64,000 nucleotides of DNA. Origin: a virus. Under the pieces are notes generated by a model. That model was not told where the DNA came from. It did no database searches and saw nothing but the letters and a program-made list of their open reading frames with translations. Both the position numbers and the translations under genes were made by a program. This document shows, piece after piece, positions 8,997 to 62,854 of the stretch; positions within the stretch are counted from its first letter, which is position 1; every line of letters begins with the position of its first letter. The DNA lies in the IMG/VR virus record IMGVR_UViG_3300028025_000091, positions 109,790 through 173,789 of that record. One strand, given 5' to 3'.

Positions 8997-9040
8997 TTTG
9001 GTGCGTTTTTACCATATGTATAATCATGGAACGCACCAAA
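8997..9040 (+). promoter_or_regulatory. Inverted repeat enclosing ATGTATAAT and the GIY-YIG start codon
   Basis: TTTGGTGCGTT (8997-9007) and AACGCACCAAA (9030-9040) are perfect 11-bp inverted repeats; inside them CCAT/ATGG pair as well, leaving ATGTATAATC as the loop. The start ATG (9026) lies in the 3' arm, so a transcript covering the whole element would hide it, while one starting from the TATAAT in the loop would not. Confidence 0.75.
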
Positions 9041-9607
9041 ATTTACTATCTACATTACGGAAATAATGTACCAATTTATGTAGGAAAATCTAATAGAATC
9101 CAAGGTAGAATATCTAATCATAGAAAAAATTTCGGAAAAGATATTATAGCTGAAGTGTTAGATGATGTACCTTTACATGAATGGAAGTTTTGGGAGTGTT
9201 TTTGGATAGAACAATTTAAACAATGGGGGTATGTTCTTTCAAACAAAAACAATGGTGGTGGAGGAGCTACTAAACAAAATTTTTCCCCTATTAGAAGTCA
9301 AAAAATAAGTAAAGCTAGACTAGGTAAACCTATGCCCCATAAAGGAAAAAAATTCACAGAAGAGCATAAAGAGAAAATTAAATCTACTCGAGGTTTTCTC
9401 CAATCCCGCCCAAATACTTGGACAAATCAACCAGTTCTTCAATATAATTTAGATGGAACTTTTATAAGGGAATTTGGTTCCCAATTAGAAGCTTCGTATT
9501 TTTTACAGGTAAAAGGAGATGGAGTTGGAGCCTGTTGTAGAGGTAAACAAAAATCTGCTTATGGTTACATATGGAAATTTAAAAATATAAAACAACAAGA
9601 ACAATGA
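9026..9607 (+). CDS. GIY-YIG homing endonuclease with NUMOD domains
   Basis: 193 aa. The nuclease core begins IYYLHYGN...PIYVGKS (GIY/YIG-equivalent strands, residues 5-21), then RIQGRISNHRK with the catalytic Arg and a WECFWIEQF helix with the metal-binding Glu. NGGGG follows, then NUMOD3-like SKARLGKPMPHKGKKFTEEHKEKI and a NUMOD1-like C-terminus (VLQYNLDGTFIREF...YGYIWKF). Such free-standing enzymes cut DNA at sites lacking them and spread by repair. It sits between queD and queE, splitting the deazaguanine genes, and its last residues KQQEQ come from the cassette junction repeat. Confidence 0.9.
   Translation: MERTKIYYLHYGNNVPIYVGKSNRIQGRISNHRKNFGKDIIAEVLDDVPLHEWKFWECFWIEQFKQWGYVLSNKNNGGGGATKQNFSPIRSQKISKARLGKPMPHKGKKFTEEHKEKIKSTRGFLQSRPNTWTNQPVLQYNLDGTFIREFGSQLEASYFLQVKGDGVGACCRGKQKSAYGYIWKFKNIKQQEQ
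9591..9606 (+). repeat. Cassette junction repeat AACAACAAGAACAATG
   Basis: 16-nt junction element; read as ..KQQEQ* in the upstream gene and giving the start codon of the downstream gene through the ATGA overlap. Further copies end at 10046, 32170, 32370 (variant AATAATG), 32711 (shortened), 33426, 33786, 62467, 62869, 63108, 63308, 63520, 63759 and 63959; a shortened copy ends at 9822. Confidence 0.85.
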
Positions 9608-11256: not shown

Positions 11257-11280
11257 ATAATTATCCGTTAGGTATCTGAT

Positions 11281-11290
11281 ATGTATAATA
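11281..11290 (+). promoter_or_regulatory. ATGTATAATA, candidate late promoter element
   Basis: Same ATGTATAAT core as in the loops before both GIY-YIG genes, 8 nt before the start of the structural block. No clear -33 box at the class I spacing. Confidence 0.4.
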
Positions 11291-11297
11291 AAAACAG

Positions 11298-12269
11298 ATG
11301 CCTACATATCCTTTTTTAACCCGAGCGTATGGACCTAATGCAAAAGGATCTACACTAACATGGGAAGATTTAGATAATAGTTTATTATTCCTCTCAGAAT
11401 CTATCAATGAACTTAATTTTGAACCATTATCAGGTTCAAATTATCTTTTTGTAGAAGCAAATAGTACACCAACTCAAAATGGTTTATCACTATCTGCTTC
11501 TTACGCTCAAGCAAAAGCTAGTTCCCCATCAGCTACAAATAGAATTTCTATTTTAGTTAGTCCTGGTGAATATACTTTTGCCTCTACTTTTACTTTAAAT
11601 ACTCAATATATTGATGTAGTATCTCTTACAGGTGAATGTGATGTATTAGTAACTGGTAGTGGTACTATTCAAATCGGTGCAAACGATGTTTATGTAAGAG
11701 GTATTGATGTTGATGTTAAAAACTTTACTATAACAGCAAGTTTACCTTTACTTAAAGTAAAAAATTGTAAAGGTGGAGATTTCAGTTTTGGAGGCTATCC
11801 AGACCCAACAACAGGAGGTACTCCTTCTCCTGGATACACTGTTGTAGGAACATTTATAGACTGTGAAGGTGGGAATATTAGCTTTGCCGGTAATGGATCA
11901 GCATATGGTACTTTTATAAATTGTACTGCAGGTAGTGGTTCATTTGGTAATTATTGTGATGGTACATTTATAGATTGTATTGCTGGTGATTCTAGTTTCG
12001 CTACTCTTGGAGATATTGAAGGAGGAACTTTAGAAAATTGTGTTGGTGGGGCAGATAGTTTTGCCTCTGTTGGAAATATATCTGAATCTATTCTTAGAAA
12101 CTGTACAGGTGGACAAAATAGTTTTGCTTTCAACACCAATATTTCCGGAATATTACAAGATTGCAGATTAACAAATGGAAGTTTTTCCTCAACTGGTACA
12201 AATATTGCCCCTGGAGGTCAATTAATTACATGCATTAACTCAGATAACACTCCTATAACATACCCATAA
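11298..12269 (+). CDS. Virion protein with parallel beta-helix and Cys ladder
   Basis: 323 aa. After about 65 residues resembling a phage neck/tail attachment segment (TRAYGPNAKGSTLTWEDLDNSL) comes a pectate-lyase-like solenoid. From about residue 155 the sequence repeats every 20-25 residues as F(I/L)(D/N)C.(G)G..SF, placing a cysteine at the same turn of successive rungs. This is typical of parallel beta-helix tail or fibre proteins that bind or cut polysaccharide. No catalytic pattern is evident. First gene of the 9-kb structural block, which uses similar Ser/Thr/Gly-rich composition throughout. Confidence 0.75.
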   Translation: MPTYPFLTRAYGPNAKGSTLTWEDLDNSLLFLSESINELNFEPLSGSNYLFVEANSTPTQNGLSLSASYAQAKASSPSATNRISILVSPGEYTFASTFTLNTQYIDVVSLTGECDVLVTGSGTIQIGANDVYVRGIDVDVKNFTITASLPLLKVKNCKGGDFSFGGYPDPTTGGTPSPGYTVVGTFIDCEGGNISFAGNGSAYGTFINCTAGSGSFGNYCDGTFIDCIAGDSSFATLGDIEGGTLENCVGGADSFASVGNISESILRNCTGGQNSFAFNTNISGILQDCRLTNGSFSSTGTNIAPGGQLITCINSDNTPITYP

Positions 12270-51332: not shown

Positions 51333-51986
51333 ATGGCACACCCAAAACCCATATCAAAAGAGGACTGTCTACGAGCAATGAAACAAACCCGCTCAATTAA
51401 AGCGGCTGCTCGTTACTTAAACTGTTCATATCAACATTTGAAACCGTTTATGAAAGCCTACAAGGATGATGAAACTGGTATATCATTGTTTGATATGCAT
51501 AAAAATCAAAGTGGTAAGGGTATCCCAAAATTTATGAGCAATGCCCCATTTGGTAGAAAGCATCCCGCAATTGAGGATGTTGTCAATGGAAATGCAGACG
51601 CCTCATCATTCACCCCAGATAAACTAAAGTTTAAAATGGTTGAGGCCGGTTACATGATTGAACAATGTTACTGGTGCAGTTATGATGAACGAAGGGAATC
51701 GGATGGTAAATCCCCATTGATCATGTTCTTTAAAGACGGCAACAAACACAACTATCGTGATGGAAACTGTCAATTATCATGCTATAACTGCTATTTTCTG
51801 CGCTTAGGAAACGTGTTTACTGAGCGTGACATGGAGTCATTGGAAGGTCATCAAACCGTTTATAAAACGACTGAAATGGTTGATTTCCAAATGGATGAAT
51901 ATCAAAAACGCAAGTTACAAGAACTTGGTTTATGGGAGACAAAAGTAGAAGACGACCCATACTCTTTAGTTTCAAGAAAAAAGTAA
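51333..51986 (+). CDS. HTH plus HNH-like zinc protein
   Basis: 217 aa. SIKAAARYLNCSYQHLKPFMK (about 20-40) is a helix-turn-helix. CYWCSYDERRESDGKSPLIMFFKDGNKHNYRDGNCQLSCYNCYFL (about 110-155) has the two CxxC pairs and central acidic/His residues of an HNH-type zinc fold, close to conserved phage 'HNH' proteins. It may be a nuclease or a DNA-binding regulator. Adjacent to a GIY-YIG gene. Confidence 0.7.
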   Translation: MAHPKPISKEDCLRAMKQTRSIKAAARYLNCSYQHLKPFMKAYKDDETGISLFDMHKNQSGKGIPKFMSNAPFGRKHPAIEDVVNGNADASSFTPDKLKFKMVEAGYMIEQCYWCSYDERRESDGKSPLIMFFKDGNKHNYRDGNCQLSCYNCYFLRLGNVFTERDMESLEGHQTVYKTTEMVDFQMDEYQKRKLQELGLWETKVEDDPYSLVSRKK

Positions 51987-52021
51987 TATTTATCATCGAG
52001 ATTTGCTGCGAAAAGGTTGGA

Positions 52022-52051
52022 TTTTGTCATATGTATAATAAAATGACAAAA
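52022..52051 (+). promoter_or_regulatory. Inverted repeat enclosing ATGTATAATAAA at the second GIY-YIG start
   Basis: TTTTGTCAT (52022-52030) and ATGACAAAA (52043-52051) are perfect 9-bp arms; loop ATGTATAATAAA. The 3' arm begins with the start ATG. Same design as 8997-9040 with different arms and conserved loop. Confidence 0.75.
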
Positions 52052-52732
52052 ATATATTTAGTTGAAAACTGTTTTGGGGATTCTAATAAAGTTTATATAG
52101 GAAAAACTATTTCTTCTAGAAAAAAAGAACATGTAAAAACATATGGAGAAAAAATTATTTATACTTTTATAGATGAAATTGATAGTTTTGATAAAAAACT
52201 ATGGAAACCCCTAGAAACATATTGGATAGAACAATTTAGACAGTGGGGATTTGAAGTGGTAAATAAAAATGCTGGGGGAGGTGGTGTGGAATTCATGTCT
52301 TTTGAATCTAAACTGAAAATGAAAAAACCAAAACCAAATGGATTTGGAGATACCACTTCCAAGAGACTTTTGGGAACCAAACAAACCCCAGAAACCATAG
52401 AAAAGAGAAGGGTTCAGTTAATAGGTAAAAAAAGAACCCCGGAACAAAAACAAACACTCCGGGAATCCTTTAAGGGAAGAATTTTTAGTGAAGAAAGAAA
52501 TAAAAAAATTGGCGATGCACAAAGAGGTATCCCTCAACCAAAATCACCTGAACTTATAGCTAAACTAAAAAAACCCATATGTCAATACGATAAACAAGGT
52601 AATTTTATTCAAGAATGGGAGAGTGCTACGGATGCTGCTTTAAAATATGGCTCAACAACAACTATCCAAAATGCCTTGAAAGAAAGAAGATGTAAGACAG
52701 CTTATGGTTTTATTTGGAAATATAAAAATTAA
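52043..52732 (+). CDS. GIY-YIG homing endonuclease with NUMOD domains
   Basis: 229 aa. IYLVENCFGDSNKVYIGKT contains the two GIY-YIG strands, RKKEHVKTYG the catalytic Arg region, and LETYWIEQFRQWGFEVVNKNAGGGG the Glu helix and Gly turn, very like the 9026 enzyme. Several NUMOD3-type repeats (KRLLGTKQTPETIEKRR, LIGKKRTPEQKQTLRE) precede a NUMOD1-like end (ICQYDKQGNFIQEW...YGFIWKYKN). I place the start at 52043; ATG 52031 in the loop is in frame and is the alternative. Confidence 0.9.
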   Translation: MTKIYLVENCFGDSNKVYIGKTISSRKKEHVKTYGEKIIYTFIDEIDSFDKKLWKPLETYWIEQFRQWGFEVVNKNAGGGGVEFMSFESKLKMKKPKPNGFGDTTSKRLLGTKQTPETIEKRRVQLIGKKRTPEQKQTLRESFKGRIFSEERNKKIGDAQRGIPQPKSPELIAKLKKPICQYDKQGNFIQEWESATDAALKYGSTTTIQNALKERRCKTAYGFIWKYKN

Positions 52733-52764
52733 TTATTACATTCATATCAATATTTATAAGTGAA

Positions 52765-53274: not shown

Positions 53275-53727
53275 ATGAGTTTAAAGGAATTAAAAATAGT
53301 TTATGAAGATGGTACAAAGTATACAAAAATTGTTCATAACAGTAATGCTAGTATTAAACCTAGACGTGACCGAATTAGACACTGCGAGTGTGGACCTTTC
53401 AAATACAAAGTAGAAAAACACGCTTATCTATGTGTCTCGATTGTTAAATTTGGGAACAAATACATGATCATGCCCGCAGGTGTTCCATGCATCCCAGAAA
53501 CAACATTGAATGATATTGAAGTAATAGACAATAAGAAACCAAAAGTAGTAGTTGAAAAACCACAAAGGCAACAATGGATGTTTGAATCATCAAGTGGTGA
53601 TGGTTTTTATCAAGTAACTGAAAATATGGGCAAGCTAAAATGCAATTGTCCTGGAACATGGAGAGCAAAAGACAGACGTTGTAAACATATAAAAGAAGTA
53701 GAACAAGAACTAAATAAAACAAAATGA
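53275..53727 (+). CDS. SWIM zinc-finger protein
   Basis: 150 aa. KLKCNCPGTWRAKDRRCKHIKEV near the C-terminus is a SWIM motif (CxC...CxH). The N-terminal CECGPFKYK pair may bind another metal. SWIM domains mediate DNA or protein binding. First gene of the unit entering the RNA block. Confidence 0.78.
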   Translation: MSLKELKIVYEDGTKYTKIVHNSNASIKPRRDRIRHCECGPFKYKVEKHAYLCVSIVKFGNKYMIMPAGVPCIPETTLNDIEVIDNKKPKVVVEKPQRQQWMFESSSGDGFYQVTENMGKLKCNCPGTWRAKDRRCKHIKEVEQELNKTK

Positions 53728-53819
53728 GCAAATCAAGCGCAAAGCAAAAAGTAGAACAGTTAAAGGATTGGTTAAGTTGGATTACATTCCAAGCAAAAAA
53801 GACCAACAAACGTAAATAA
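53724..53819 (+). CDS. Basic peptide, 31 aa
   Basis: ATGA overlap with the SWIM gene; ends TAA 53817-53819. Sequence is a basic helix with DWLSWITFQ in the middle. The overlap supports it but length is marginal. Confidence 0.5.
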   Translation: MSKSSAKQKVEQLKDWLSWITFQAKKTNKRK

Positions 53820-54006
53820 AAAAACGCTGATGTTCTGATTAGGCATCGAAGAGCAGTACCGGTAGCTCCGAGCAGGTTAAGCGTGCCCTGCATCATTAAA
53901 ACACATAAACTCAAGTACCCATACCGCAAACGTAGGGTTAAATAAGATACAATTTCGTGCTATCCATTGTGTAGGGGCGGGAAGTAGAATGCTTGAGAGT
54001 GTGGTT
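53820..54006 (+). other. GC-rich non-coding stretch, possible structured RNA
   Basis: No ORF. Clearly more GC-rich than the surrounding 30-35% GC genes. Contains nested pairings: ACGCT/AGCGT closing 53823-53883, GATG/CATC and GAGC/GCTC inside it, and GCAGG/CCTGC just after. No tRNA T-loop is present here. Either an RNA gene or decayed tRNA array. Confidence 0.4.
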
Positions 54007-54091
54007 AGTCAGGTGGTGTAATTGGTAACACGGTCCTAATTTAATATGGTGCATACCAGGGCTAGTACAGGTTCGAATCCTGTCCTGACTA
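54007..54091 (+). tRNA. tRNA-like element with abnormal anticodon region
   Basis: 85 nt. Acceptor AGTCAGG/CCTGACT, D-arm GTGT-AATTGGTA-ACAC and T-arm ACAGG-TTCGAAT-CCTGT are perfect. The anticodon stem can only be GTCCT/AGGGC with a 20-nt loop that contains a small hairpin GGT-GCAT-ACC, and no normal 7-nt loop with U33 results from removing 13 nt. No anticodon assigned. Could be a tRNA with an insertion, a pseudo-tRNA or a tRNA mimic. Confidence 0.6.
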
Positions 54092-54096
54092 CAATT

Positions 54097-54170
54097 GGTC
54101 TTTTAGCTCAGTAGGTTAGAGCAACTGACTCATAATCAGTAGGTGCTAGGTTCGAGCCCTAGAAGGACCA
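54097..54170 (+). tRNA. tRNA-Met (CAU anticodon)
   Basis: 74 nt. Acceptor GGTCTTT/AAGGACC (one G-T), D-arm AGCTCAGTAGGTTAGAGC, anticodon stem ACTGA/TCAGT with loop CTCATAA, T-arm CTAGG-TTCGAGC-CCTAG, discriminator A. CAU could also be lysidine-modified tRNA-Ile2. CCA is not encoded in full. Confidence 0.93.
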
Positions 54171-54342
54171 CGAACAGTACCTACCACGCTACCCATTAGA
54201 ACAGCGCCCCAGGGTAGGTCTTTTCGTTATTGGGAAGTTGGGAAGATTTATAGGTGTAAACGCGTTACCTCTATAAACACCCATATAACCACTAACACCC
54301 CCAGATAAGACTATTTGATCAATAGAAACTGCCTGGGTTTAT
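54171..54342 (+). other. Non-coding spacer with a second hairpin
   Basis: Besides the hairpin just given, TTATAGGT...ACCTCTATAA (about 54249-54277) forms a bulged 9-bp stem around a near-palindrome GTAAACGCGTTAC. No ORF or tRNA is visible in this spacer. Confidence 0.4.
54178..54230 (+). terminator. Hairpin after tRNA-Met, possible terminator or processing site
   Basis: ACCTACC (54180-54186) pairs with GGTAGGT (54213-54219), followed by CTTTTCG. Loop of about 26 nt, so a weak terminator at best. Confidence 0.4.
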
Positions 54343-54415
54343 TGTCCTATGGTGTAATTGGCAACACGTCTGGTTTTGGTCCAGAAGAGTCGAGGTTCGA
54401 GCCCTTGTGGGACAA
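54343..54415 (+). tRNA. tRNA-Gln (UUG anticodon)
   Basis: 73 nt. Acceptor TGTCCTA/TGGGACA, D-arm GTGT-AATTGGCA-ACAC, anticodon stem TCTGG/CCAGA with loop TTTTGGT (anticodon TTG, reading CAA), T-arm CGAGG-TTCGAGC-CCTTG, discriminator A. CAA is the Gln codon used throughout, including each junction repeat. Confidence 0.94.
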
Positions 54416-54436
54416 CTAATTTTAAAAAATAGTTAT

Positions 54437-54607
54437 ATGTTGCTTATTACAGGATTTCTTTGCCTAGCAATGGCAGGGATGATGATTTTAGTTGGTCATT
54501 TGATAAACCGAATAAATCGTTTAGAATACTTAATTGAGGATATGAATCATGATTTGAACATGATCGCTCACACTAAAAAGAATGAAAAACAAATTTTAAA
54601 AGGGTAG
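54437..54607 (+). CDS. Membrane-anchored coiled-coil peptide, 56 aa
   Basis: ATG 54437 after 'aaaatagttat' is preferred; an upstream GTG-type start would lie inside tRNA-Gln. A transmembrane helix at residues 2-24 is followed by a coiled coil NRINRLEYLIEDMNHDL. Stop at the stem of the next terminator. Confidence 0.7.
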   Translation: MLLITGFLCLAMAGMMILVGHLINRINRLEYLIEDMNHDLNMIAHTKKNEKQILKG

Positions 54608-54626
54608 GCTTTCGCCTACCTTTTTT
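54603..54626 (+). terminator. Intrinsic terminator
   Basis: GGTAGGC-TTTC-GCCTACC, perfect 7-bp stem and tetraloop, then TTTTTT. It carries a TATATT at 54628 that makes a GTAG-N20-TATATT promoter for 54651. Confidence 0.92.
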
Positions 54627-54633
54627 GTATATT
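54604..54633 (+). promoter_or_regulatory. Weak class I-like promoter (GTAG-N20-TATATT)
   Basis: TATATT 54628-54633 with GTAG 20 nt upstream (54604-54607); spacer is the terminator. -33 box is poor. Confidence 0.45.
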
Positions 54634-54650
54634 TATCTAAAACAAGGAAT

Positions 54651-54734
54651 ATGAAAAAAGATGAAGTTCAAACTCTTGTTATAGTGTTAAGCATATTTGT
54701 CACAATTGGTCTCTTAACATTATTACTTAGTTAA
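54651..54734 (+). CDS. Single-pass membrane peptide, 27 aa
   Basis: MKKDEVQ followed by a 19-residue hydrophobic helix ending LLS. Has its own promoter and leader, and stops 11 nt before the next gene. Very short membrane peptides of this kind occur in phages as host modulators; unrecognised. Confidence 0.6.
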   Translation: MKKDEVQTLVIVLSIFVTIGLLTLLLS

Positions 54735-54745
54735 ATCAAAACCAA

Positions 54746-55456
54746 ATGAAGGTTACATTAATTTCAGACACTCATACAAAACACAACCAACTCAATGGTG
54801 ACTTACCAGGAGGTGATTTGTTAATTCATGCTGGTGACTTCATGAACTCAGGTTATTATAAAACAGAAGCTATTGAATTTTTCAATTGGTTCAAAGCGAT
54901 TGATAACTATACTGATAAGATATTCATTGCAGGAAACCATGATCGTATAATGCAAGATGAACCTGAATGGGCTAAAAGTTATTTAACTGATTATAAAACA
55001 ATTGATTATTTACAAGACGAACAAGTTACATTATACTTTGATGGGATGAACGGAGATCATCCGGAAGATAATGTTCGCATCTATGGTTCACCTTGGCAAC
55101 CGGAATTTCATAATTGGGCATTCAACTTACCTCGCAATGGTGAGGAAATGAAAGCAAAATGGGATGCTATTCCAACCAACACAGATATCTTAATCACACA
55201 TGGTCCTCCATTTGGTTACCAAGATATACCAGGTGGGCATAGTATACGAGTTGGATGTGAAATGTTACGTTATCGAGTAGATGAAATTAAACCAAAAATT
55301 CATGTATTTGGACATATTCATGGTGGTTATGGTCACTATTACAATGGGCATACACATTTCTTTAATGCCGCCATATTAAATGAGCGATACAATTATTCAC
55401 ATTTACCATTCACGTTTGAATGGGATCCAATAACAAATGAAATAACTTGGTTATGA
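54746..55456 (+). CDS. Calcineurin-like metallophosphoesterase
   Basis: 236 aa. LISDTHTKH, LLIHAGDFMN, FIAGNHDRI, ILITHGPPFGY and HVFGHIHGGYG are the five metal-binding motifs in order (D-x-H, GD, GNHD, H, GHxH). Closest in layout to MPPED-type single-domain enzymes. Substrate may be a nucleotide or phosphoprotein; a role against nucleotide-based defence signals is possible. Confidence 0.92.
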   Translation: MKVTLISDTHTKHNQLNGDLPGGDLLIHAGDFMNSGYYKTEAIEFFNWFKAIDNYTDKIFIAGNHDRIMQDEPEWAKSYLTDYKTIDYLQDEQVTLYFDGMNGDHPEDNVRIYGSPWQPEFHNWAFNLPRNGEEMKAKWDAIPTNTDILITHGPPFGYQDIPGGHSIRVGCEMLRYRVDEIKPKIHVFGHIHGGYGHYYNGHTHFFNAAILNERYNYSHLPFTFEWDPITNEITWL

Positions 55457-55698
55457 AACAAACAGTAATGCTTCGGGTTCTAGACAAAGACCCATACAAA
55501 AAAGTAGTTGAAATTGACTTTAAATCATTTCAATTCAAATACCGATTAGGTAAAGAAGTAATAGGCACAATGGATGGAATCAGAGTAGCAATGTGTGTAG
55601 AGGATTATGATGCTGCTTTAAAAGAACAACGTGAACATGCACTCACCGAAATGGTAAGATTAGATCAAGAATTAGGTTTATATAATATAGAAGAATAA
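55453..55698 (+). CDS. Hypothetical protein, 81 aa
   Basis: ATG 55453 overlaps the phosphoesterase stop. Beta strands then a helix (MCVEDYDAALKEQREHALTEMVRLDQELG). Unrecognised. Confidence 0.7.
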   Translation: MKQTVMLRVLDKDPYKKVVEIDFKSFQFKYRLGKEVIGTMDGIRVAMCVEDYDAALKEQREHALTEMVRLDQELGLYNIEE

Positions 55699-56063
55699 TG
55701 ATAGGAGGAACACAACCAAAAGTATCACTCACACAAGATGTAAACGATGTTTTACACATGAGTCCAGAACTAACAGAAGCACTTGGTTTAACAGAAAGTG
55801 AATTTAACTGGAGATTAGTTAGAGAAGGAGATGGTTTAAACAAAAAATCCAAAGCAATAATTTGGTTAGAATGGAATGAAGATGGTACATTTAATTCAAA
55901 ACATGATAAACCAGCAATTGGTCGTTCATTACTTATGTCTCCATTCAACCATTTTTATACTTGGCAAACAACAACTATTAAAGAAATCCTTGACTCCACA
56001 GAAGATCTTTCGTATATTAAATTCAAAACAAGGAATAGTATTTACGAATTATTTAAGTTATGA
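55698..56063 (+). CDS. Hypothetical protein, 121 aa
   Basis: TAATG overlap. Mixed alpha/beta with SLTQDVNDVLHMSPELTEALGLTESEFNWRLVREGDGL and a YTWQTTTIKEIL region; no family recognised. Ends overlapping the next gene by 4 nt. Confidence 0.7.
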   Translation: MIGGTQPKVSLTQDVNDVLHMSPELTEALGLTESEFNWRLVREGDGLNKKSKAIIWLEWNEDGTFNSKHDKPAIGRSLLMSPFNHFYTWQTTTIKEILDSTEDLSYIKFKTRNSIYELFKL

Positions 56064-56359
56064 AAAAACAAAATTATTACTACATTTTACACATTTTAGC
56101 AGGTATTACAATTGGATATTTATTGTTTTCATGCAAAGCCAATAAAGCAAGTTGCGATGCGTATTCTAGATTTTATCAATTTCGCATTGAAGGAAAAGTA
56201 ATACATGAAGGTGATACATGTGATGCAATAGCATATACAAATGAGTACCTAACAACAGACGATAGTGTATTTTATTTCAATTCAAACAACCGAATTCAAA
56301 CCATTTTACCCCCATACACAATCTATGAATGTACACGAGAGCAAAGGACGTCCAACTGA
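56060..56359 (+). CDS. Putative lipoprotein/membrane protein, 99 aa
   Basis: Hydrophobic segment at residues 8-24 ends LLFSC, a possible lipobox, with Cys25 lipidated. The rest is polar with CDA.Y repeats at about 32 and 53 (CDAYSR, CDAIAY). Confidence 0.65.
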   Translation: MKKQNYYYILHILAGITIGYLLFSCKANKASCDAYSRFYQFRIEGKVIHEGDTCDAIAYTNEYLTTDDSVFYFNSNNRIQTILPPYTIYECTREQRTSN

Positions 56360-56558
56360 GAAAAAATTACCAGTAGTAGTTGTTTACAAAAAACCTACAG
56401 GTAAAAAACACTATATGTTGATTACAGAACATGAAATAGATGTTATTTTGAACCCATCTAAACGTAAACCATTCATCCCAGACAATTATGAAATAGTTGA
56501 TTTAGGTGTAGGTGAATCGTTTATTAAAACATTTAAAAAACAATACGACATCAAATGA
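56325..56558 (+). CDS. Hypothetical protein, 77 aa
   Basis: Starts inside the previous gene (ATG 56325, MNVHESKGRP). Basic, with KLPVVVVYKKPTGKKHYMLITEHEIDVIL forming an alpha/beta stretch. A longer start at 56265 has no leader and is less likely. Confidence 0.68.
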   Translation: MNVHESKGRPTEKKLPVVVVYKKPTGKKHYMLITEHEIDVILNPSKRKPFIPDNYEIVDLGVGESFIKTFKKQYDIK

Positions 56559-56788
56559 TGAAAATCGACCAAGAAGAATTTAATCGCAAAACACAACATA
56601 TCCTCGACACGGTTGTAAAACCACAGGTTGAGAAATATGAAAAAGCCAAAGCAGATGGGGAACTCATTCCAAAACCAAGACAAATAGGAGCCGCTGGATT
56701 TTTATATGATGAGTACTTTTTAGACCGTTTATTTAAAGCAGTCATGGTACCAAGAGAATATTTAGGTAAAAAAGAAGAAGAACAATGA
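56555..56788 (+). CDS. Hypothetical protein, 77 aa
   Basis: Two tandem ATGs; charged helical protein ending KKEEEQ, whose 3' DNA (AAGAAGAACAATG) approximates the cassette junction. ATGA overlap with the next gene. Confidence 0.7.
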   Translation: MMKIDQEEFNRKTQHILDTVVKPQVEKYEKAKADGELIPKPRQIGAAGFLYDEYFLDRLFKAVMVPREYLGKKEEEQ

Positions 56789-57018
56789 GTTTCTATAGAC
56801 ACAACGACAAACTATACATTATCAAAAGACAAATCCGAATAGCAGATTTCACAGATAAAGAAGGTAAAGTCGATTTAGACTTGGTTAAGGAAGGAAGAGA
56901 TAGTATATTTAAAGTAGATCACGTATTACGAAATGAAACACATTTTTTATTTGCTGAAACGATTCCGGATGTGGAATTTGAAATGGTGGAAGAAACACAT
57001 AGCGGACACAGTGCCTGA
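56785..57018 (+). CDS. Hypothetical protein, 77 aa
   Basis: Beta-rich with FYRHNDKLYIIKRQIRIADFTD and a VEFEMVEETH end. Unrecognised; coupled to the previous gene. Confidence 0.7.
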   Translation: MSFYRHNDKLYIIKRQIRIADFTDKEGKVDLDLVKEGRDSIFKVDHVLRNETHFLFAETIPDVEFEMVEETHSGHSA

Positions 57019-57039
57019 ACATTTAAATGATATATTTTA

Positions 57040-57357
57040 ATGAAAACTAAACTATTAAAAAAACTACGTAAACGATTTTCTTGGAAATGTGTGCAGAAAG
57101 ATTGCGGAGGGATAATGATGGACCGGTGGGTTTTGCTTAATAATGATCAACATATTATTACAACGTATGCTAGTACCGAACGATTATTATATAGCATGTT
57201 AGACTACAATGCAGAATACGGCTTTGCTTATTGGAACAAGCTTCTACACACTCATGTAAACAAAATGATGCGACGAGAGTTTGACCGACATGGTAATAAC
57301 CCAATGGGCAGACAAGCTCCACCACCTCCACCATTTAATAGAAGGGCAATTATATGA
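57040..57357 (+). CDS. Hypothetical basic protein, 105 aa
   Basis: Basic N-terminus (KLLKKLRKRFSWKC) and a Pro-rich end (APPPPPPFNRR). Middle is YWNKLLHTHVNKMMRREF helix. It overlaps the next gene by 4 nt. Unrecognised. Confidence 0.7.
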   Translation: MKTKLLKKLRKRFSWKCVQKDCGGIMMDRWVLLNNDQHIITTYASTERLLYSMLDYNAEYGFAYWNKLLHTHVNKMMRREFDRHGNNPMGRQAPPPPPFNRRAII

Positions 57358-57902
57358 AACAGTTACTAGAAAAAATTCAATTATGGTGGAAATTTGAGGG
57401 TAGATACTACCACAGAGATTTCGTCACAGGTGTCAAAAACCTATGGAACTGGTTTCCAACTATTTGGAAAGACCGAGATTGGGATCAAACATTCATATAT
57501 GAAATATTAATCCATAAATTGGAAAAACAAGCCAAATATATTGGAGAAAGAGATTGGCATACTGAAGCAAAACGTGATGCTGAAAAAATGTTATTATGTG
57601 CTCGTTTGGCTCGTATTCAACAAGAGGATTTATATTCCCATGAATATTTTGATTATCTAGATCAGGATTTTGAATTTATTCCAACTGATGAGACCGAAGA
57701 ATGGTTTGAAATGGAATCAACCGTTACCCGAGATGATTTAGTTGATTATTTATACAAATATAGACATCAACATAAATTGATTGATAAAACAGATAAAGAC
57801 AATCATCACATTGCAATAGAAATCGCCCGAAACAACCAAGAACGTTCTCGTAAATTGTTATTTAAGATAATGGAAGAGAATATCGAACGTTGGTGGGACT
57901 AA
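57354..57902 (+). CDS. Conserved phage hypothetical protein, 182 aa
   Basis: WWKFEGRYYHRDFVTGVKNLWNWFPTIWKDRDWDQTFIYEIL is an aromatic-rich pattern I recall in several large phages without known function. All-alpha in appearance, with a C-terminal NQERSRKLLFKIMEENIERWW helix. Confidence 0.8.
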   Translation: MKQLLEKIQLWWKFEGRYYHRDFVTGVKNLWNWFPTIWKDRDWDQTFIYEILIHKLEKQAKYIGERDWHTEAKRDAEKMLLCARLARIQQEDLYSHEYFDYLDQDFEFIPTDETEEWFEMESTVTRDDLVDYLYKYRHQHKLIDKTDKDNHHIAIEIARNNQERSRKLLFKIMEENIERWWD

Positions 57903-57916
57903 AACAAAACAAACAT

Positions 57917-58174
57917 ATGATAACACCACAATCAATTAGAAAAGGAATCATCATCAAGTTCGATGGTGTAGTAGTAGACAAAAAAACAGTCATTGAAGCT
58001 AGTGAAGGGTGGAATCCAAACCACGAAATATTGTTCAAAAAACTACTCAAACAAGGAGGAAATTTCTACATCAAAGGAGTATTAGTTGAAGTCATCCCTG
58101 AAGAAAAAACATTTAATTCCAGAGGAGACAAAGATGGAGGCATCCAACAAATAGATGCATTTGCTCGTTTTTAA
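57917..58174 (+). CDS. Hypothetical protein, 85 aa
   Basis: ATG 57917 (cat-ATG) is preferred to a TTG at 57890 inside the previous gene. Small beta-barrel-like pattern: SIRKGIIIKFDGVVVDKKTV and IKGVLVEVIPEE. Confidence 0.68.
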   Translation: MITPQSIRKGIIIKFDGVVVDKKTVIEASEGWNPNHEILFKKLLKQGGNFYIKGVLVEVIPEEKTFNSRGDKDGGIQQIDAFARF

Positions 58175-58177
58175 AAA

Positions 58178-58207
58178 TTTGGCTATTTAAAATATCTTTC
58201 GTATATT
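58178..58207 (+). promoter_or_regulatory. Class I promoter (TTTG-N20-TATATT)
   Basis: TTTG 58178-58181 and TATATT 58202-58207, 20-nt spacer, TTCG before the -7 box. Confidence 0.7.
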
Positions 58208-58223
58208 CCTTGAAAATAAGGAA

Positions 58224-58433
58224 ATGAAAGCAGTTTTAGATAAAAAGAATAGACCCAAACCTGACCCAACATTCATAGTTTTGAATGAATTGGCTCAGGT
58301 TTTCTGTGGCTTACGAGGTGGTTATCCTGAATTTAGTGATGACTTTGATTCTGCTAAACCATTAATAAATGATGAACAAGTAAAAATGATTAAACAAGGG
58401 ACTACCTTTAAATTAGAAAAATATTTTCTGTGA
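58224..58433 (+). CDS. Hypothetical protein, 69 aa
   Basis: ATG behind 'aaaataagga'. Helical with LNELAQVFCGLRGGYPEFSDDFDSAKPL. Its stop TGA is the start of the next promoter's GGGAATA box. Confidence 0.68.
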   Translation: MKAVLDKKNRPKPDPTFIVLNELAQVFCGLRGGYPEFSDDFDSAKPLINDEQVKMIKQGTTFKLEKYFL

Positions 58434-58434
58434 G

Positions 58435-58467
58435 GGAATAAGAGATCAAAAGATTAATTCGTATATT
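58435..58467 (+). promoter_or_regulatory. Class II promoter (GGAATA, 27 nt, TATATT)
   Basis: GGAATA 58435-58440 and TATATT 58462-58467, start-to-start 27 nt, with TTCG before TATATT. Confidence 0.6.
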
Positions 58468-58488
58468 GATTATATAAAAAGAAAAATT

Positions 58489-58704
58489 ATGAGAAGAGAA
58501 GATTTTAAATACCCAATAAGAGTAATTACACGTCAAGAAGAAATTGAAGGTGGTAATGCATTAATGTCTTTAATAGGAATGTTATTAGCCATCCCTATAG
58601 TAATAATTGATACTATTTTATATAAAATCTTTGGTCATAAAGGTTCTAATATAGCTTGGGTAGTATTGATTTTAGGAAGTTTAGGTTATTTATTTATTTT
58701 CTAA
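58489..58704 (+). CDS. Small membrane protein, 71 aa
   Basis: Two hydrophobic helices (about 23-43 and 54-71) with a basic loop between them. N-terminal 20 residues are cytoplasmic and charged. Unrecognised. Confidence 0.7.
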   Translation: MRREDFKYPIRVITRQEEIEGGNALMSLIGMLLAIPIVIIDTILYKIFGHKGSNIAWVVLILGSLGYLFIF

Positions 58705-58708
58705 TGAG

Positions 58709-58741
58709 GGAATAAGAGATTAAAAAAGAAATTCGTATATT
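58709..58741 (+). promoter_or_regulatory. Class II promoter (GGAATA, 27 nt, TATATT)
   Basis: GGAATA 58709-58714 and TATATT 58736-58741, 27 nt apart. Drives the RadA-like ATPase. Confidence 0.62.
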
Positions 58742-58767
58742 AATTGTATAAAAAGAAAAGAAAAGTT

Positions 58768-59586
58768 ATGAACATTACACAAAGACAAACAACCGGAAAA
58801 CGAGGACGCCCATCAAAAGTAAATAATTTGATGCCTGTCCCATCAATCATTGATTTTTCCCAAATCACAAAATTGAATAAATTAGATATTGATAAGCGAA
58901 TGCTTGAATCAATGTCAACAGGAGTACCTGCTCTAGACACATTGTTTTCACATGAAAGTGGAGTGCCATGTGCAACAAATATCATGGCAGTTGGTGACCC
59001 AGGAGTAGGTAAAACAACAGTAATGCTTGATGTTTTAGCATCTGTTCAAAACAAAGGTCGCAAATGTCTATTCATTTCAGGTGAAATGGGTCGCAAACAA
59101 ATGTTCAAATACACAGAGCGATTCAAACAATTCGGAATTGTAGATACATTATTTACATCTGATTTTATGCAATACAATACAAAGGATGTAATTGAGCAAG
59201 CATTTAATATTGGCTATGATTTGGTTTTGATTGACTCGATTGCTGAAATCATTGAAGGTGCTCGTGACGATAACGGATGGGATCGTAAAACAGCTGAATC
59301 ATGGTTAGTTGAATCATGTGTTCGAAACAATAAAGGCGAGAACAAACAAAACAAATTCACATCATTCCTATTGATTCAGCAAGTAACTAAATCAGGTGAG
59401 TTTGTAGGTTCAAACAAATTGAAACACATGACCGATGGAATGCTTGAAATGCGACGTGACTCAGAACGTGATGGAGGTGGATGTTACATGATGTTTAACA
59501 AAAACAGAAATGGAAACGTAAACAAGAAATTGTCGTTTGAACTTTCAAACAATAAAATCGATTATGGAATTTTAGTAGATGCTTAA
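58768..59586 (+). CDS. RadA/RecA-like ATPase
   Basis: 272 aa; ATG 58768 after 'aaaagaaaagtt'. STGVPALDTLFS, AVGDPGVGKTTVMLDVLA (Walker A), CLFISGEMGRKQMFKYTERF, DLVLIDSIAEI (Walker B), SFLLIQQVTKSGEFVGSNKLKHMTDGMLEMRRD and FNKNRNGN match RadA/Sms order (GE..SG.., KNRFG-like). No zinc finger or Lon-like domain, so it is a RadA core alone. Probably promotes branch migration or recombination-dependent replication. An AT-hook-like RGRPSK precedes the ATPase domain. Confidence 0.88.
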   Translation: MNITQRQTTGKRGRPSKVNNLMPVPSIIDFSQITKLNKLDIDKRMLESMSTGVPALDTLFSHESGVPCATNIMAVGDPGVGKTTVMLDVLASVQNKGRKCLFISGEMGRKQMFKYTERFKQFGIVDTLFTSDFMQYNTKDVIEQAFNIGYDLVLIDSIAEIIEGARDDNGWDRKTAESWLVESCVRNNKGENKQNKFTSFLLIQQVTKSGEFVGSNKLKHMTDGMLEMRRDSERDGGGCYMMFNKNRNGNVNKKLSFELSNNKIDYGILVDA

Positions 59587-59591
59587 TTGAA

Positions 59592-59624
59592 GGAATAAAA
59601 GATATAAAGTTGAATTCGTATATT
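59592..59624 (+). promoter_or_regulatory. Class II promoter (GGAATA, 27 nt, TATATT)
   Basis: GGAATA 59592-59597 and TATATT 59619-59624, 27 nt apart, TTCG before TATATT. Confidence 0.62.
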
Positions 59625-59648
59625 GAGGTATAAATAAAGAAAAAAAAT

Positions 59649-59999
59649 ATGGCTAAAAAAGAGAAGAATATTATTGAAACAAAGTTCTTAAACATCAAAA
59701 ACAAGTTTAAAGCGGGGGGGTACGACATTGAAGAGATGGATCATTTAACATGTGATTTGATTGCTCATTTAGCACAATTGACAGACAATGGTTTCACAGA
59801 AGTAGAAGGTGTATCAATTGATCTCTACAAGGATAGAACATGGTGGTTAATTGAAAAACTAGGTCTATTACCTGAATACCGAGACGATGAAGAGGATGAA
59901 TTTGATGACTCAAGTGATGAAGAGGAAGAAGATGATTACTACAAAGACGATGCATTCGAATTCGAGGTAGAAATTGATGACAGTAAATTTTATAAGTAA
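59649..59999 (+). CDS. Hypothetical protein with long acidic tail, 116 aa
   Basis: Helical N-terminal 75 residues, then a highly acidic stretch (DDEEDEFDDSSDEEEEDDYY) resembling DNA-mimic or binding-competitor tails. Overlaps the next gene by 1 nt (TAATG). Confidence 0.72.
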   Translation: MAKKEKNIIETKFLNIKNKFKAGGYDIEEMDHLTCDLIAHLAQLTDNGFTEVEGVSIDLYKDRTWWLIEKLGLLPEYRDDEEDEFDDSSDEEEEDDYYKDDAFEFEVEIDDSKFYK

Positions 60000-60349
60000 T
60001 GGTAAATGTAGGAGCGTTATTGGTAGGAATGTTTTTTGGATTTTTGGCTCAAGTAGCAACATTCTTCCAATTGCAAGGCCCTATGAAGTATGAATGGTTT
60101 AAAAATCATTACTGGTTAACAGTACTAATGGGAATACCTATTTCAATGTTATTTATGTACTCAGTTAAAAATATGGTTATGGCATTTGACGGTCAAATGT
60201 GGCCGTCACGCTTAATTGGATTTTCAATTGGTGCAATAGTATTTAGTTTATTAAGTTGGACTATATTCAACGAACCATTAACAACAAAAACAATAGTTTG
60301 TTTAGTTTTGGCTGTTGCTATCCTATTAGTTCAGCTTTTTATGAAATAA
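59999..60349 (+). CDS. Polytopic membrane protein (small DMT-like), 116 aa
   Basis: Four hydrophobic helices with a conserved-looking FNEPLTTKTIVCLVLAVAILLVQLF end, like the last pair of helices in small multidrug/EamA-type transporters. Transport is not proven. Confidence 0.68.
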   Translation: MVNVGALLVGMFFGFLAQVATFFQLQGPMKYEWFKNHYWLTVLMGIPISMLFMYSVKNMVMAFDGQMWPSRLIGFSIGAIVFSLLSWTIFNEPLTTKTIVCLVLAVAILLVQLFMK

Positions 60350-60351
60350 AA

Positions 60352-60381
60352 TTTGGATACCTGAAAGATATTTCGTATATT
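60352..60381 (+). promoter_or_regulatory. Class I promoter (TTTGGATACC..TATATT)
   Basis: TTTG 60352-60355 and TATATT 60376-60381, 20-nt spacer, with GATACC and TTCG extensions. Strongest match of the class. Confidence 0.72.
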
Positions 60382-60429
60382 CCATCATAAATAAGGAAAT
60401 AAAGGTTTTAAAATAAAAAAAGAAAAGTT

Positions 60430-61239
60430 ATGTTAGATTTAAGCAAAGACAGTTTTTTGACATTAGATGAAGTTAAGCAACGCGCTAAGTCAATTTTTAC
60501 AGCAACAGCCGCTCCAACGGTTTCAGACAAGTTTACCCACATTCCAACATTCAAAGTAATTGAAGATATGGAGCAACTAGGTTGGGGTGTAGTTGATGCC
60601 AAAGAGGTAAAAGCTCGCAAAGAGGGAACAAAAGGATACCAAAAACACCTAGTTGTATTCCGCAATCCAGATGTAGTAATCAATGGAGCAGATGGCGATA
60701 CAGTATTTCCACAAATCCTATTGACAAATTCAAATGATGGTAAAAACGCGTTTACGTTTACCGCTGGATTGTTTCGAATGGTATGTGAGAATGGTTTGGT
60801 TATTTCAACTGAGCAGTTCAATGATGTGAAAATGCGCCACATGGGTTACACATTTGAGGAATTGCAAGTGCAAATCAAAGAGATGGTTGAGTTGTTACCA
60901 TTAACGGTTGAGTCAATGAATAAAATGAAACAAATTGAATTGAGCAAAGACCAAACAAAAGAATTAGCTAAAAAAGCATTAGCGACACGTTTCACAGAAG
61001 AACAAGTTGAGGCGTTCAACATCGATTTGGATAAATTATTAGAACCAACTCGTGATGAAGATAAAGGTACCGATTTATGGTCAGTATTCAATGTGATTCA
61101 AGAAAAAATCATTGATGGTGATTTCACATACATGATTGGAACAAGAGTTAGAAAAGCACGTAAAGTGAAGAATTTCAAACAAGACATGGAAATCAACCAA
61201 AAATTATTCGCAACGGCAGCCGAGTTTATGGCTGCCTAA
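60430..61239 (+). CDS. DUF932 phage/plasmid-like protein
   Basis: 269 aa; ATG after 'aaaagaaaagtt'. HLVVFRNPDVVINGADGDTVFPQILLTNSNDGKNAFTFTAGLFRMVCENGLVIS is the DUF932 core (R.p.v.gd....l.l.nshDG.....f.ag.fR.vC.NGl). Common on phages and plasmids; function unknown, possibly DNA-binding. Own promoter and long leader suggest high expression. Confidence 0.86.
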   Translation: MLDLSKDSFLTLDEVKQRAKSIFTATAAPTVSDKFTHIPTFKVIEDMEQLGWGVVDAKEVKARKEGTKGYQKHLVVFRNPDVVINGADGDTVFPQILLTNSNDGKNAFTFTAGLFRMVCENGLVISTEQFNDVKMRHMGYTFEELQVQIKEMVELLPLTVESMNKMKQIELSKDQTKELAKKALATRFTEEQVEAFNIDLDKLLEPTRDEDKGTDLWSVFNVIQEKIIDGDFTYMIGTRVRKARKVKNFKQDMEINQKLFATAAEFMAA

Positions 61240-61246
61240 GCCCCCA

Positions 61247-61367
61247 AGTCAGGTAATGCGTAATGTGAAAATGGTATCACACCCAAAAAACACCACGGTC
61301 CATAAGCTATTGGACGCGAGAAGTTATAAAGGTTGCATCGTTGCAGGTTCGAATCCTGTCCTGACTA
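61247..61367 (+). tRNA. Second tRNA-like element, expanded (121 nt)
   Basis: Acceptor AGTCAGG/CCTGACT is perfect; T-arm GCAGG-TTCGAAT-CCTGT; a D-arm-like TGTGA-AAATGGTA-TCACA; and a hairpin GTCCA/TGGAC with an 8-nt loop. The core is 47 nt longer than a tRNA. The last 27 nt (61344-61370) are identical with 54068-54094. Either a degenerate tRNA copy, a tRNA with an insertion or a tRNA-like RNA. Confidence 0.5.
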
Positions 61368-61393
61368 CAACTGCTTCATAACCAGTTTCTTTT

Positions 61394-61430
61394 CCTGCCG
61401 TGTGGATACGAACATGCGGCAGGTTTTTTT
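61394..61430 (+). terminator. Strong intrinsic terminator
   Basis: CCTGCCG/CGGCAGG stem with a 16-nt loop followed by TTTTTTT. Ends the DUF932/tRNA-like unit. Confidence 0.92.
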
Positions 61431-61437
61431 AAACAAA

Positions 61438-61470
61438 GGAATGGTTTTAGCAAAAGATATTTCGTATATT
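61438..61470 (+). promoter_or_regulatory. Class II promoter (GGAATG, 27 nt, TATATT)
   Basis: GGAATG 61438-61443 and TATATT 61465-61470, 27 nt apart, TTCG before TATATT. Confidence 0.6.
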
Positions 61471-61489
61471 GATTGTATAAAAAAAACAA

Positions 61490-61651
61490 ATGGAAGATTA
61501 TCAACAAAAAATCATTGCCCTCCAAGAGGAAATGATACAGATATTAACTAATGGTATTAAGGAACGTGATAAGTTCATTAAATTATTAGAACGACAGTTA
61601 GAACGAGCAGAAAAATTTATAATAACACAACATGAGCAACAACAAAAGTAA
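61490..61651 (+). CDS. Coiled-coil peptide, 53 aa
   Basis: ATG 61490, stop TAA 61649-61651, overlapping the next gene. Continuous helix MEDYQQKIIALQEEMIQILTNG...KLLERQLERAEKF with heptad spacing. Supported by its own promoter. Confidence 0.68.
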   Translation: MEDYQQKIIALQEEMIQILTNGIKERDKFIKLLERQLERAEKFIITQHEQQQK

Positions 61652-61832
61652 TTCATCAAGCGGTTTAGGATTAGGTATGATCCTATTCCTCATATTCATG
61701 GTATTGAAATTAACAGATAATATTGATTGGAGTTGGTGGTGGGTAACAGCCCCATTATGGATACCAATTTCATGCTTGATATTAATATTTGGTTTGGTAG
61801 CGATTTATACCTACATTAAATTGAAACAATGA
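61632..61832 (+). CDS. Small membrane protein, TM 'Fragile-X-F'-like
   Basis: 66 aa. GMILFLIFMVLKLTDNIDWSWWWVTAPLWIPI resembles the two-helix 'transmembrane Fragile-X-F' phage/bacterial family (LKL....DWSWWWV..PLW). Function of that family is unknown. Confidence 0.8.
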   Translation: MSNNKSNSSSGLGLGMILFLIFMVLKLTDNIDWSWWWVTAPLWIPISCLILIFGLVAIYTYIKLKQ

Positions 61833-62101
61833 GTTTAGAACTACCCGTAATAGAATCGTTTGGTAGAAACCGAATTACACCACGTTACAATCAAGGCCAT
61901 GACATGAAGAAAATGGTTGGACGTACATTACGATGTAATATGTTTCCAACGTTACGTGGTAGATTACTCTACACATACAAAGAGCGTTGCTACTTTGTAA
62001 TGGTAGAAAACGATGAATGGCCAAAGTACAATCAATGTGCAGGTCAAATAGAATGGTTAAATGAACATATGGTATTAACAATGCCATTTGAAAACGAATA
62101 A
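61829..62101 (+). CDS. Hypothetical protein, 90 aa
   Basis: ATGA overlap with the membrane protein. Beta-rich with RRNPTLRG-like basic patch (TLRCNMFPTLRGRLLYTYKERCYFVMVEND). Unrecognised. Confidence 0.7.
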   Translation: MSLELPVIESFGRNRITPRYNQGHDMKKMVGRTLRCNMFPTLRGRLLYTYKERCYFVMVENDEWPKYNQCAGQIEWLNEHMVLTMPFENE

Positions 62102-62102
62102 T

Positions 62103-62408
62103 ATGGAAAAAGTAATTAAAGACGGAAAAGTAGCAGTATTAGTCTCTTATGGTTGGGGTGCAGGATTCTATTCATGGGGTGCTCCAGTTGAAGCGATTTT
62201 TGATCCAACATTGGTTGATTTGATTGAAAAAAAACACATCCAAGATGCAATCCTATATGTACAAAACACATACCCTGATGCTTATGCAGGTGGTATTGAT
62301 GATTTATGTATTGTATGGGTACCTGAAGGAGCAAAGTTCATCATCAATGAATATGATGGAAGTGAATCACTCCAATTAATGGATAAAACAGATTGGTTAA
62401 CAGCTTAA
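62103..62408 (+). CDS. Conserved phage hypothetical protein, 101 aa
   Basis: ATG 62103 (taatATGGAAAAAG). VIKDGKVAVLVSYGWGAGFYSWGAPVEAIFDPTLVDLIE and IDDLCIVWVPEGAKFIINEYDGSE match a small protein seen in many large phages. Function unknown. Confidence 0.8.
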   Translation: MEKVIKDGKVAVLVSYGWGAGFYSWGAPVEAIFDPTLVDLIEKKHIQDAILYVQNTYPDAYAGGIDDLCIVWVPEGAKFIINEYDGSESLQLMDKTDWLTA

Positions 62409-62412
62409 CAAA

Positions 62413-62445
62413 GGAATAGTGATCGTCAAATAACTTTCGTATATT
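62413..62445 (+). promoter_or_regulatory. Class II promoter (GGAATA, 27 nt, TATATT)
   Basis: GGAATA 62413-62418 and TATATT 62440-62445, 27 nt apart. Drives the cassette array; the junction repeat at 62452-62467 forms its leader. Confidence 0.65.
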
Positions 62446-62464
62446 CCAATAAACAACAAGAACA

Positions 62465-62854
62465 ATGAAAACGTACAAACACAAACAAACAGGTATTATA
62501 GGTAAAACAAACGATCAAGATTATTTTTTACATATTGAAAGAGGCAATTCAGAAGTGATTGCATTGGAAACAATTTCAATGGTATTTGTTGAAAATTCAA
62601 ATGATTGGGAAGAATTAATTCCAACTGTTGTACCAACTGAACAATTACCAACGAAATGGTTTAAACACTTAGAGATTGAAACATGGATAGGTGAATCAAT
62701 AACAACAGAAGGTAAGAAAATTGAAGAGTTAAATGGAGGTCGTGGTAAATTAATTGTGTTGCATCAATGTGGTGAAAATAAACAAGAATTGATTTCACAA
62801 CTTGAAGTCATGATTAATGGACTACAAGACGAATTTGAATATTTTGCTAACTAA
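62465..62854 (+). CDS. Cassette protein, 129 aa
   Basis: First gene of the second array, starting at a junction repeat. YFLHIERGNSEVIALETISMVFVENSNDWEEL is a beta pattern familiar from Bacteroidetes phage hypotheticals; the C-terminal half has WIGESITTEGKKIEELNGG and ends with a helix. Confidence 0.78.
   Translation: MKTYKHKQTGIIGKTNDQDYFLHIERGNSEVIALETISMVFVENSNDWEELIPTVVPTEQLPTKWFKHLEIETWIGESITTEGKKIEELNGGRGKLIVLHQCGENKQELISQLEVMINGLQDEFEYFAN

Follow-up and report, generated by a model that had tools for sequence, protein, structure and literature searches.

The window analysed here, a stretch of 64,000 nucleotides of viral DNA, corresponds to bases 109790-173789 of a 173.8-kb IMG/VR record. 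By comparison of the tail sheath, the nearest named relative is Flavobacterium phage immuto (~50% identity), in which T4-type gp20 and gp23 are present; the source phage is a Flavobacterium-type myovirus, distant from the T4 group. The Pfam family of the T4 sliding clamp was searched for and not found, and an Rfam search of the window returned tRNAs as the sole matches. The hairpins, motif copies and genes placed below by window coordinates all lie on the plus strand.

Gene 2 (52043..52732) encodes a GIY-YIG-type homing endonuclease of 229 amino acids. Its product matched the PHROG 314 homing endonuclease family (E 9.5e-15) and, under that model's cut-off, TIGR01453 (E 2.7e-8), and gene 2 aligns to gene 1 (E 1e-26). 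Gene 1 (9026..9607), a GIY-YIG homing endonuclease of 193 amino acids, matched Pfam PF01541 above its cut-off. A Pfam search of the gene-2 product gave no GIY-YIG match of its own, and the domain is assigned to it through the Pfam match of gene 1 together with the PHROG match and alignment of gene 2. Among named phages, the best homologues are in Bacteroides and Flavobacterium phages, at less than 60% identity, and the cellular genomes searched held no close homologues and two distant matches only.

The start of gene 2 lies in a hairpin, in which the 5' arm TTTTGTCAT (52022..52030) and the 3' arm ATGACAAAA (52043..52051) enclose a loop of 12 nt, ATGTATAATAAA (52031-52042). The 3' arm consists of the start codon and codons 2-3, exactly as in the original prediction of 9-bp arms with a 3' arm opening on the start codon: the ATG at 52043 begins the open reading frame (ORF). 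The loop and the two 3'-terminal bases of the 5' arm together make up a late-promoter-like motif, ATATGTATAATAAA (52029..52042), which scores 19.4 bits at gene 2. In a read-through mRNA, the translation initiation region falls within the stem; the computed unpaired value of the gene-2 AUG was 0.05 with the upstream sequence and 0.93 without it.

The motif stands within a start-codon hairpin at all three GIY-YIG genes of the phage and at one unrelated ORF. At gene 1 the hairpin (8997..9040; fold -17.7 kcal/mol, z -4.3) has outer arms TTTGGTGCGTT (8997-9007) and AACGCACCAAA (9030-9040) and inner arms CCAT (9012-9015) and ATGG (9026-9029), the latter enclosing ATGTATAATC, with the motif at 9014-9025. 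The third gene, at G000:88884 and outside the window, has arms GTTGTT/AACAAC flanking the shared loop core; here the stem covers the AUG only partly (0.36 unpaired) and is the weaker case. Between motif and ATG, genes 1-3 have no Shine-Dalgarno-like sequence. The unrelated ORF (11298..12269) encodes a repeat-containing protein of 323 amino acids that is not of the GIY-YIG type; it gave zero matches in Pfam, PHROG and NCBIfam and is not an endonuclease by these libraries. Its hairpin (11270..11303; fold z -3.6) has arms AGGTATCTG (11270-11278) and CAGATGCCT (11295-11303), with one G-U pair, enclosing ATATGTATAATAAAAA. The sole close relative of this ORF, at L318, has wholly different yet perfect 8-bp arms, GACATATG/CATATGTC.

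The loop nonamer ATGTATAAT is, as had been noted, identical in the gene-1 and gene-2 elements. The accompanying claim that the arms share no sequence is largely right, except that their outer ends are alike (TTTTG.../...CAAAA), because both 3' arms encode a shared Thr-Lys. As to the further argument that two such cases make chance unlikely, the genome has more than two cases, and 9-bp hairpins are not rare: the window holds 8 perfect hairpins whose stems reach 9 bp or more, against 5-14 in shuffled sequence. Neither the fold energy at gene 2 (z = -1.5) nor a matched-arm test of gene 2 alone (p 0.07) was significant, and judging this hairpin by count or folding energy alone was dropped. Since 9-bp hairpins are common and the gene-2 fold is not exceptional, the case for the element rests on position and recurrence.

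To characterize the loop we used the octamers enriched upstream of the 197 predicted genes, which fall into two main groups. One, AATATTTATAATAAAA, precedes about 29 genes besides the four hairpin genes, and the late-promoter-like motif (ATATKTATAATAAAA) was defined from 29 non-endonuclease genes. Its consensus in this phage is ATATTTATAATAAAA, which is not the T4-type late promoter TATAAATA; the nonamer of the hairpin loops corresponds to the core of the motif, apart from a single T to G substitution. Of the genes that the motif precedes, two encode tail sheath and one tail tube, and Flavobacterium phage immuto carries the motif ahead of its sheath and tube genes and of several tail genes. 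The original prediction had taken the conserved loop as part of an RNA design. This idea found no support, and we rejected the loop as an RNA motif: because the motif precedes about 29 genes that have no such hairpin, the loop is best read as a DNA signal, presumably the late promoter of the phage, used late. Genome-wide, the spacing from the motif to the ATG looks two-peaked, at about 22 and 12-14 nt.

The second octamer group, TTCGTATATT, is concentrated near both ends of the record. The corresponding motif, TTCGTATATTnnnnGTATAAAA, occurs for example at L003:823-8565 and at 53275-62465 of the window, and likely represents an early promoter class. The phage also encodes a sigma-factor-like ORF (G000:14862-15599, in L003), which matched Sigma70_r2 with E 1e-4, under the curated cut-off, and, weakly, a PHROG late sigma factor (E 0.04). 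A protein 45% identical to this ORF is encoded by phage immuto, where it is annotated as hypothetical.

We then compared the arms across relatives. The sample comprised 64 distinct motif-bearing loci, namely relatives of genes 1 and 2 plus the three endonuclease genes themselves; each upstream segment was compared both with the downstream segment of the same locus and with downstream segments from other loci, and each of 14 clusters was represented by one locus. Own arms beat swapped arms, with a stem score of 18.6 against 15.3 (z 3.9) and a duplex energy z of -4.0, and at endonuclease loci matched arms exceeded permuted ones with p 0.0005-0.001. In the control set of 29 other motif genes, the same comparison gave a z of about 0. 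Many endonuclease relatives have a stem that is weak or absent.

The covariation that the original prediction expected in the upstream regions of relatives is present, and matched arms win only at endonuclease genes. In a subfamily of gene-3 relatives (L277-L294), 95.8% of the cells of a 12-pair stem are paired, with two-sided changes in 7/12 pairs and a covariation score of 0.55, compared with 0.25 for shuffled and at most 0.21 for slid alignments. In the gene-1 family, the stem is 92.9% paired and covaries as well, with two-sided changes in 3/12 pairs; at one pair position U-A, A-U and C-G all occur. Since the 3' arm is coding in this family, it is the 5' side that follows the codon changes. 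The nearest relatives of gene 2 share about 60% identity with it and differ from it in their arms (for example, TTTCAT/ATGAAA in L009), a distance that puts the gene-2 arms beyond a test by close homologues. The view that compensated arms reveal a selected structure is supported for the gene-1 family and L277-L294, and for gene 2 it is suggested by the family pattern.

Two variants of the layout were seen among the relatives. In L047, L054, L063 and L307 the late motif serves as the 5' arm, pairing with the start-codon segment. Hairpins of the gene-3 family (L277, L279, L281, L284, L286-L288 and L292-L294) have covarying arms of 10-12 bp, followed by a T-run and then the ATG. With the late motif in the loop, hairpins of the L277-L294 type look terminator-like, the T-run suggesting termination.

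We also examined loci fetched by the motif alone, which gave at least 249 distinct sites, at least 194 of them preceding an ORF of at least 60 amino acids. At least 11 of these ORFs were GIY-YIG, as matched by a profile built from the GIY-YIG relatives. Among the matches listed, stems were longer at GIY-YIG ORFs than at the others (14.9 versus 12.2, p 0.0016; 11 versus 177 ORFs), and the AUG in a long transcript was on average less often unpaired (0.19 versus 0.41, p 0.0016). In a short transcript without the upstream sequence, no difference was detected among the same matches (0.55 versus 0.58, p 0.78). The G variant of the motif preceded GIY-YIG ORFs in 10 of 69 cases and the T variant in 1 of 125 (Fisher p 1.6e-4; L322 and up, among the matches listed). 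Six ORFs matching an HNH-like profile were excluded from these statistics as circular, because the four that seeded the profile had been spotted among the strongest stems; the HNH label is itself weak, with sub-threshold Pfam HNH matches in one of four ORFs tested. Some HNH-like ORFs have the same layout around the late motif, as at L442:3588 (CTTTACCATA/TATGGTAAAG) and L493:1441 (TTCCATAATA/TATTATGGAA).

Comparison with empty sites shows that the hairpin belongs to the mobile gene. At these sites (L554-L557, L560, L561 and others) the upstream gene is kept and both endonuclease and hairpin are absent; in the six named, the upstream stop codon abuts the motif, which is followed by the downstream gene. 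The endonuclease is, therefore, missing at the matching site of close relatives, as is characteristic of a mobile homing endonuclease gene. In our phage, copies of the motif flank the endonuclease on both sides: ATATTTAT of the native motif lies to the left of the insertion (51986..51993), and ATATTTAT recurs to its right (52750..52757), before the downstream gene (ATG 52765). The gene-2 hairpin sits within the insertion and is lacking from the empty sites, indicating that it travels with the gene.

These results are, in our view, probably best explained by the hairpin acting as an expression gate on mobile endonuclease genes, with the loop as a late promoter, a read-through mRNA that cannot be translated, and translation of the mRNA from the gene's own promoter. 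An mRNA derived from upstream would hold both arms, fold and bury the start codon, preventing translation. Transcription from the loop promoter would begin no further upstream than the 3' end of the loop, yielding an mRNA that has no 5' arm, does not fold and is translated. The gene's own late promoter would then be the sole source of the endonuclease, irrespective of the transcript that had received the insertion. Computed support comes from the hairpin, the association of the motif with structural genes, arm covariation, endonuclease specificity and co-mobility; we infer the identity of the promoter, its late use, its start site and the block of translation by the hairpin. The gate is not purely early-versus-late, because transcripts from the left motif copy (51986) would carry the whole hairpin, so that the gate would oppose any upstream transcript, late ones included.

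The position of the motif fits a promoter whose transcript, from its predicted start site, drops the 5' arm. However, at genes 1 and 2 the TATAAT segment stops only 1-3 nt short of the ATG, and with the motif so near, the mRNA from this promoter would have almost no leader or, given sigma-70-like spacing, might lose the AUG. The near-leaderless mRNA predicted for these two genes is the weakest point of the mechanism. In F. johnsoniae, leaders exceed 10 nt in 87% of predicted transcripts (PMC6847099). Bacteroidota are without Shine-Dalgarno sequences, and mRNA structure tunes initiation (PMC6847099).

The inverted repeat might instead be a DNA operator, to which the endonuclease or another protein binds to repress the overlapping promoter, like I-TevI, which binds an operator overlapping its own late promoter (PMC2988022). 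That the motif itself forms one arm in L054, L047 and L307 would suit such a site. A binding site, however, would keep its sequence, whereas the arms change completely between related genes yet stay complementary, and they are largely unrelated among different genes of one phage; we consider an operator improbable. We likewise doubt that the hairpin serves chiefly as an intrinsic terminator or insulator against read-through, with the promoter in its loop restarting transcription. The arms of L277-L294, which span 10-12 bp, are in part G+C-rich and lead into a T-run and then the ATG, speak for termination, but in genes 1 and 2, ORF 11298 and the gene-1 family the stem includes the start codon and has no T-run behind it. 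Termination may be true of the L277-L294 subfamily only.

It is very unlikely that AT-rich flanks and recurrent N-terminal codons (ATG ACA AAA) simply yield accidental arms around a genuine promoter. The shuffled-rate frequency of 9-bp hairpins and the weakness of gene 2 taken alone are what chance would predict, but chance is exceeded by the within-sequence permutation, by the control of other motif genes and by the two-sided changes in relatives.

The design, read as an expression gate, is not unique and matches a strategy known from T4-group phages. In T4, I-TevI, I-TevII, I-TevIII and the free-standing SegB have a hairpin over the translation start only on the upstream-initiated mRNA, and a late promoter is sited so that the late mRNA, without the 5' side, escapes (PMC2988022); this gating logic has been demonstrated for I-TevI and mobE (PMC2988022, PMC3014915). 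As in our phage, these are homing endonuclease genes, mostly GIY-YIG, and their logic of hairpin and late promoter is the one proposed here. The T4 hairpins, however, sequester the Shine-Dalgarno site, whereas in our phage the stem holds the start codon, an arrangement in keeping with hosts that do without Shine-Dalgarno sequences; the promoter-like motif also differs, being ATATKTATAATAAA filling the loop here and TATAAATA in T4. In Aeromonas phage Aeh1, RNA structure was shown experimentally to reduce translation initiation of the free-standing endonuclease gene mobE (PMC3014915), a single gene of the HNH family with a sequestered ribosome-binding site, in contrast to the recurrent element with covarying arms described here. 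Inhibitory structures are also found at the translation start of T4 genes e, soc and 49 (PMC3014915), non-endonuclease late genes that follow the same logic and are comparable to ORF 11298; their sequences are unrelated, and here the start codon is in the stem and the late motif in the loop.

Taken together, the observations can tentatively be read, at less than even confidence, as a portable promoter-in-hairpin module that, across Bacteroidota phages, is common to GIY-YIG and HNH-like endonuclease genes as well as to some other late genes. Such a module would prefer ATATGTATAATAAA, have its arms rebuilt to the first codons of each new gene and give near-leaderless mRNAs in hosts without Shine-Dalgarno initiation, and in one lineage would have turned into a terminator whose loop contains a promoter.

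The expression gate suggests that hiding the endonuclease start from read-through mRNA, a device known from a few T4-group genes, recurs in distantly related phages infecting hosts that make no use of Shine-Dalgarno sequences, and the covarying arms are comparative evidence for selection on endonuclease start-site hairpins. The promoter-in-hairpin layout provides a signature for finding such genes and a candidate late promoter for Flavobacterium-type T4-like phages. It also offers a testable case of a mobile gene that would insulate itself from the transcript into which it inserts.
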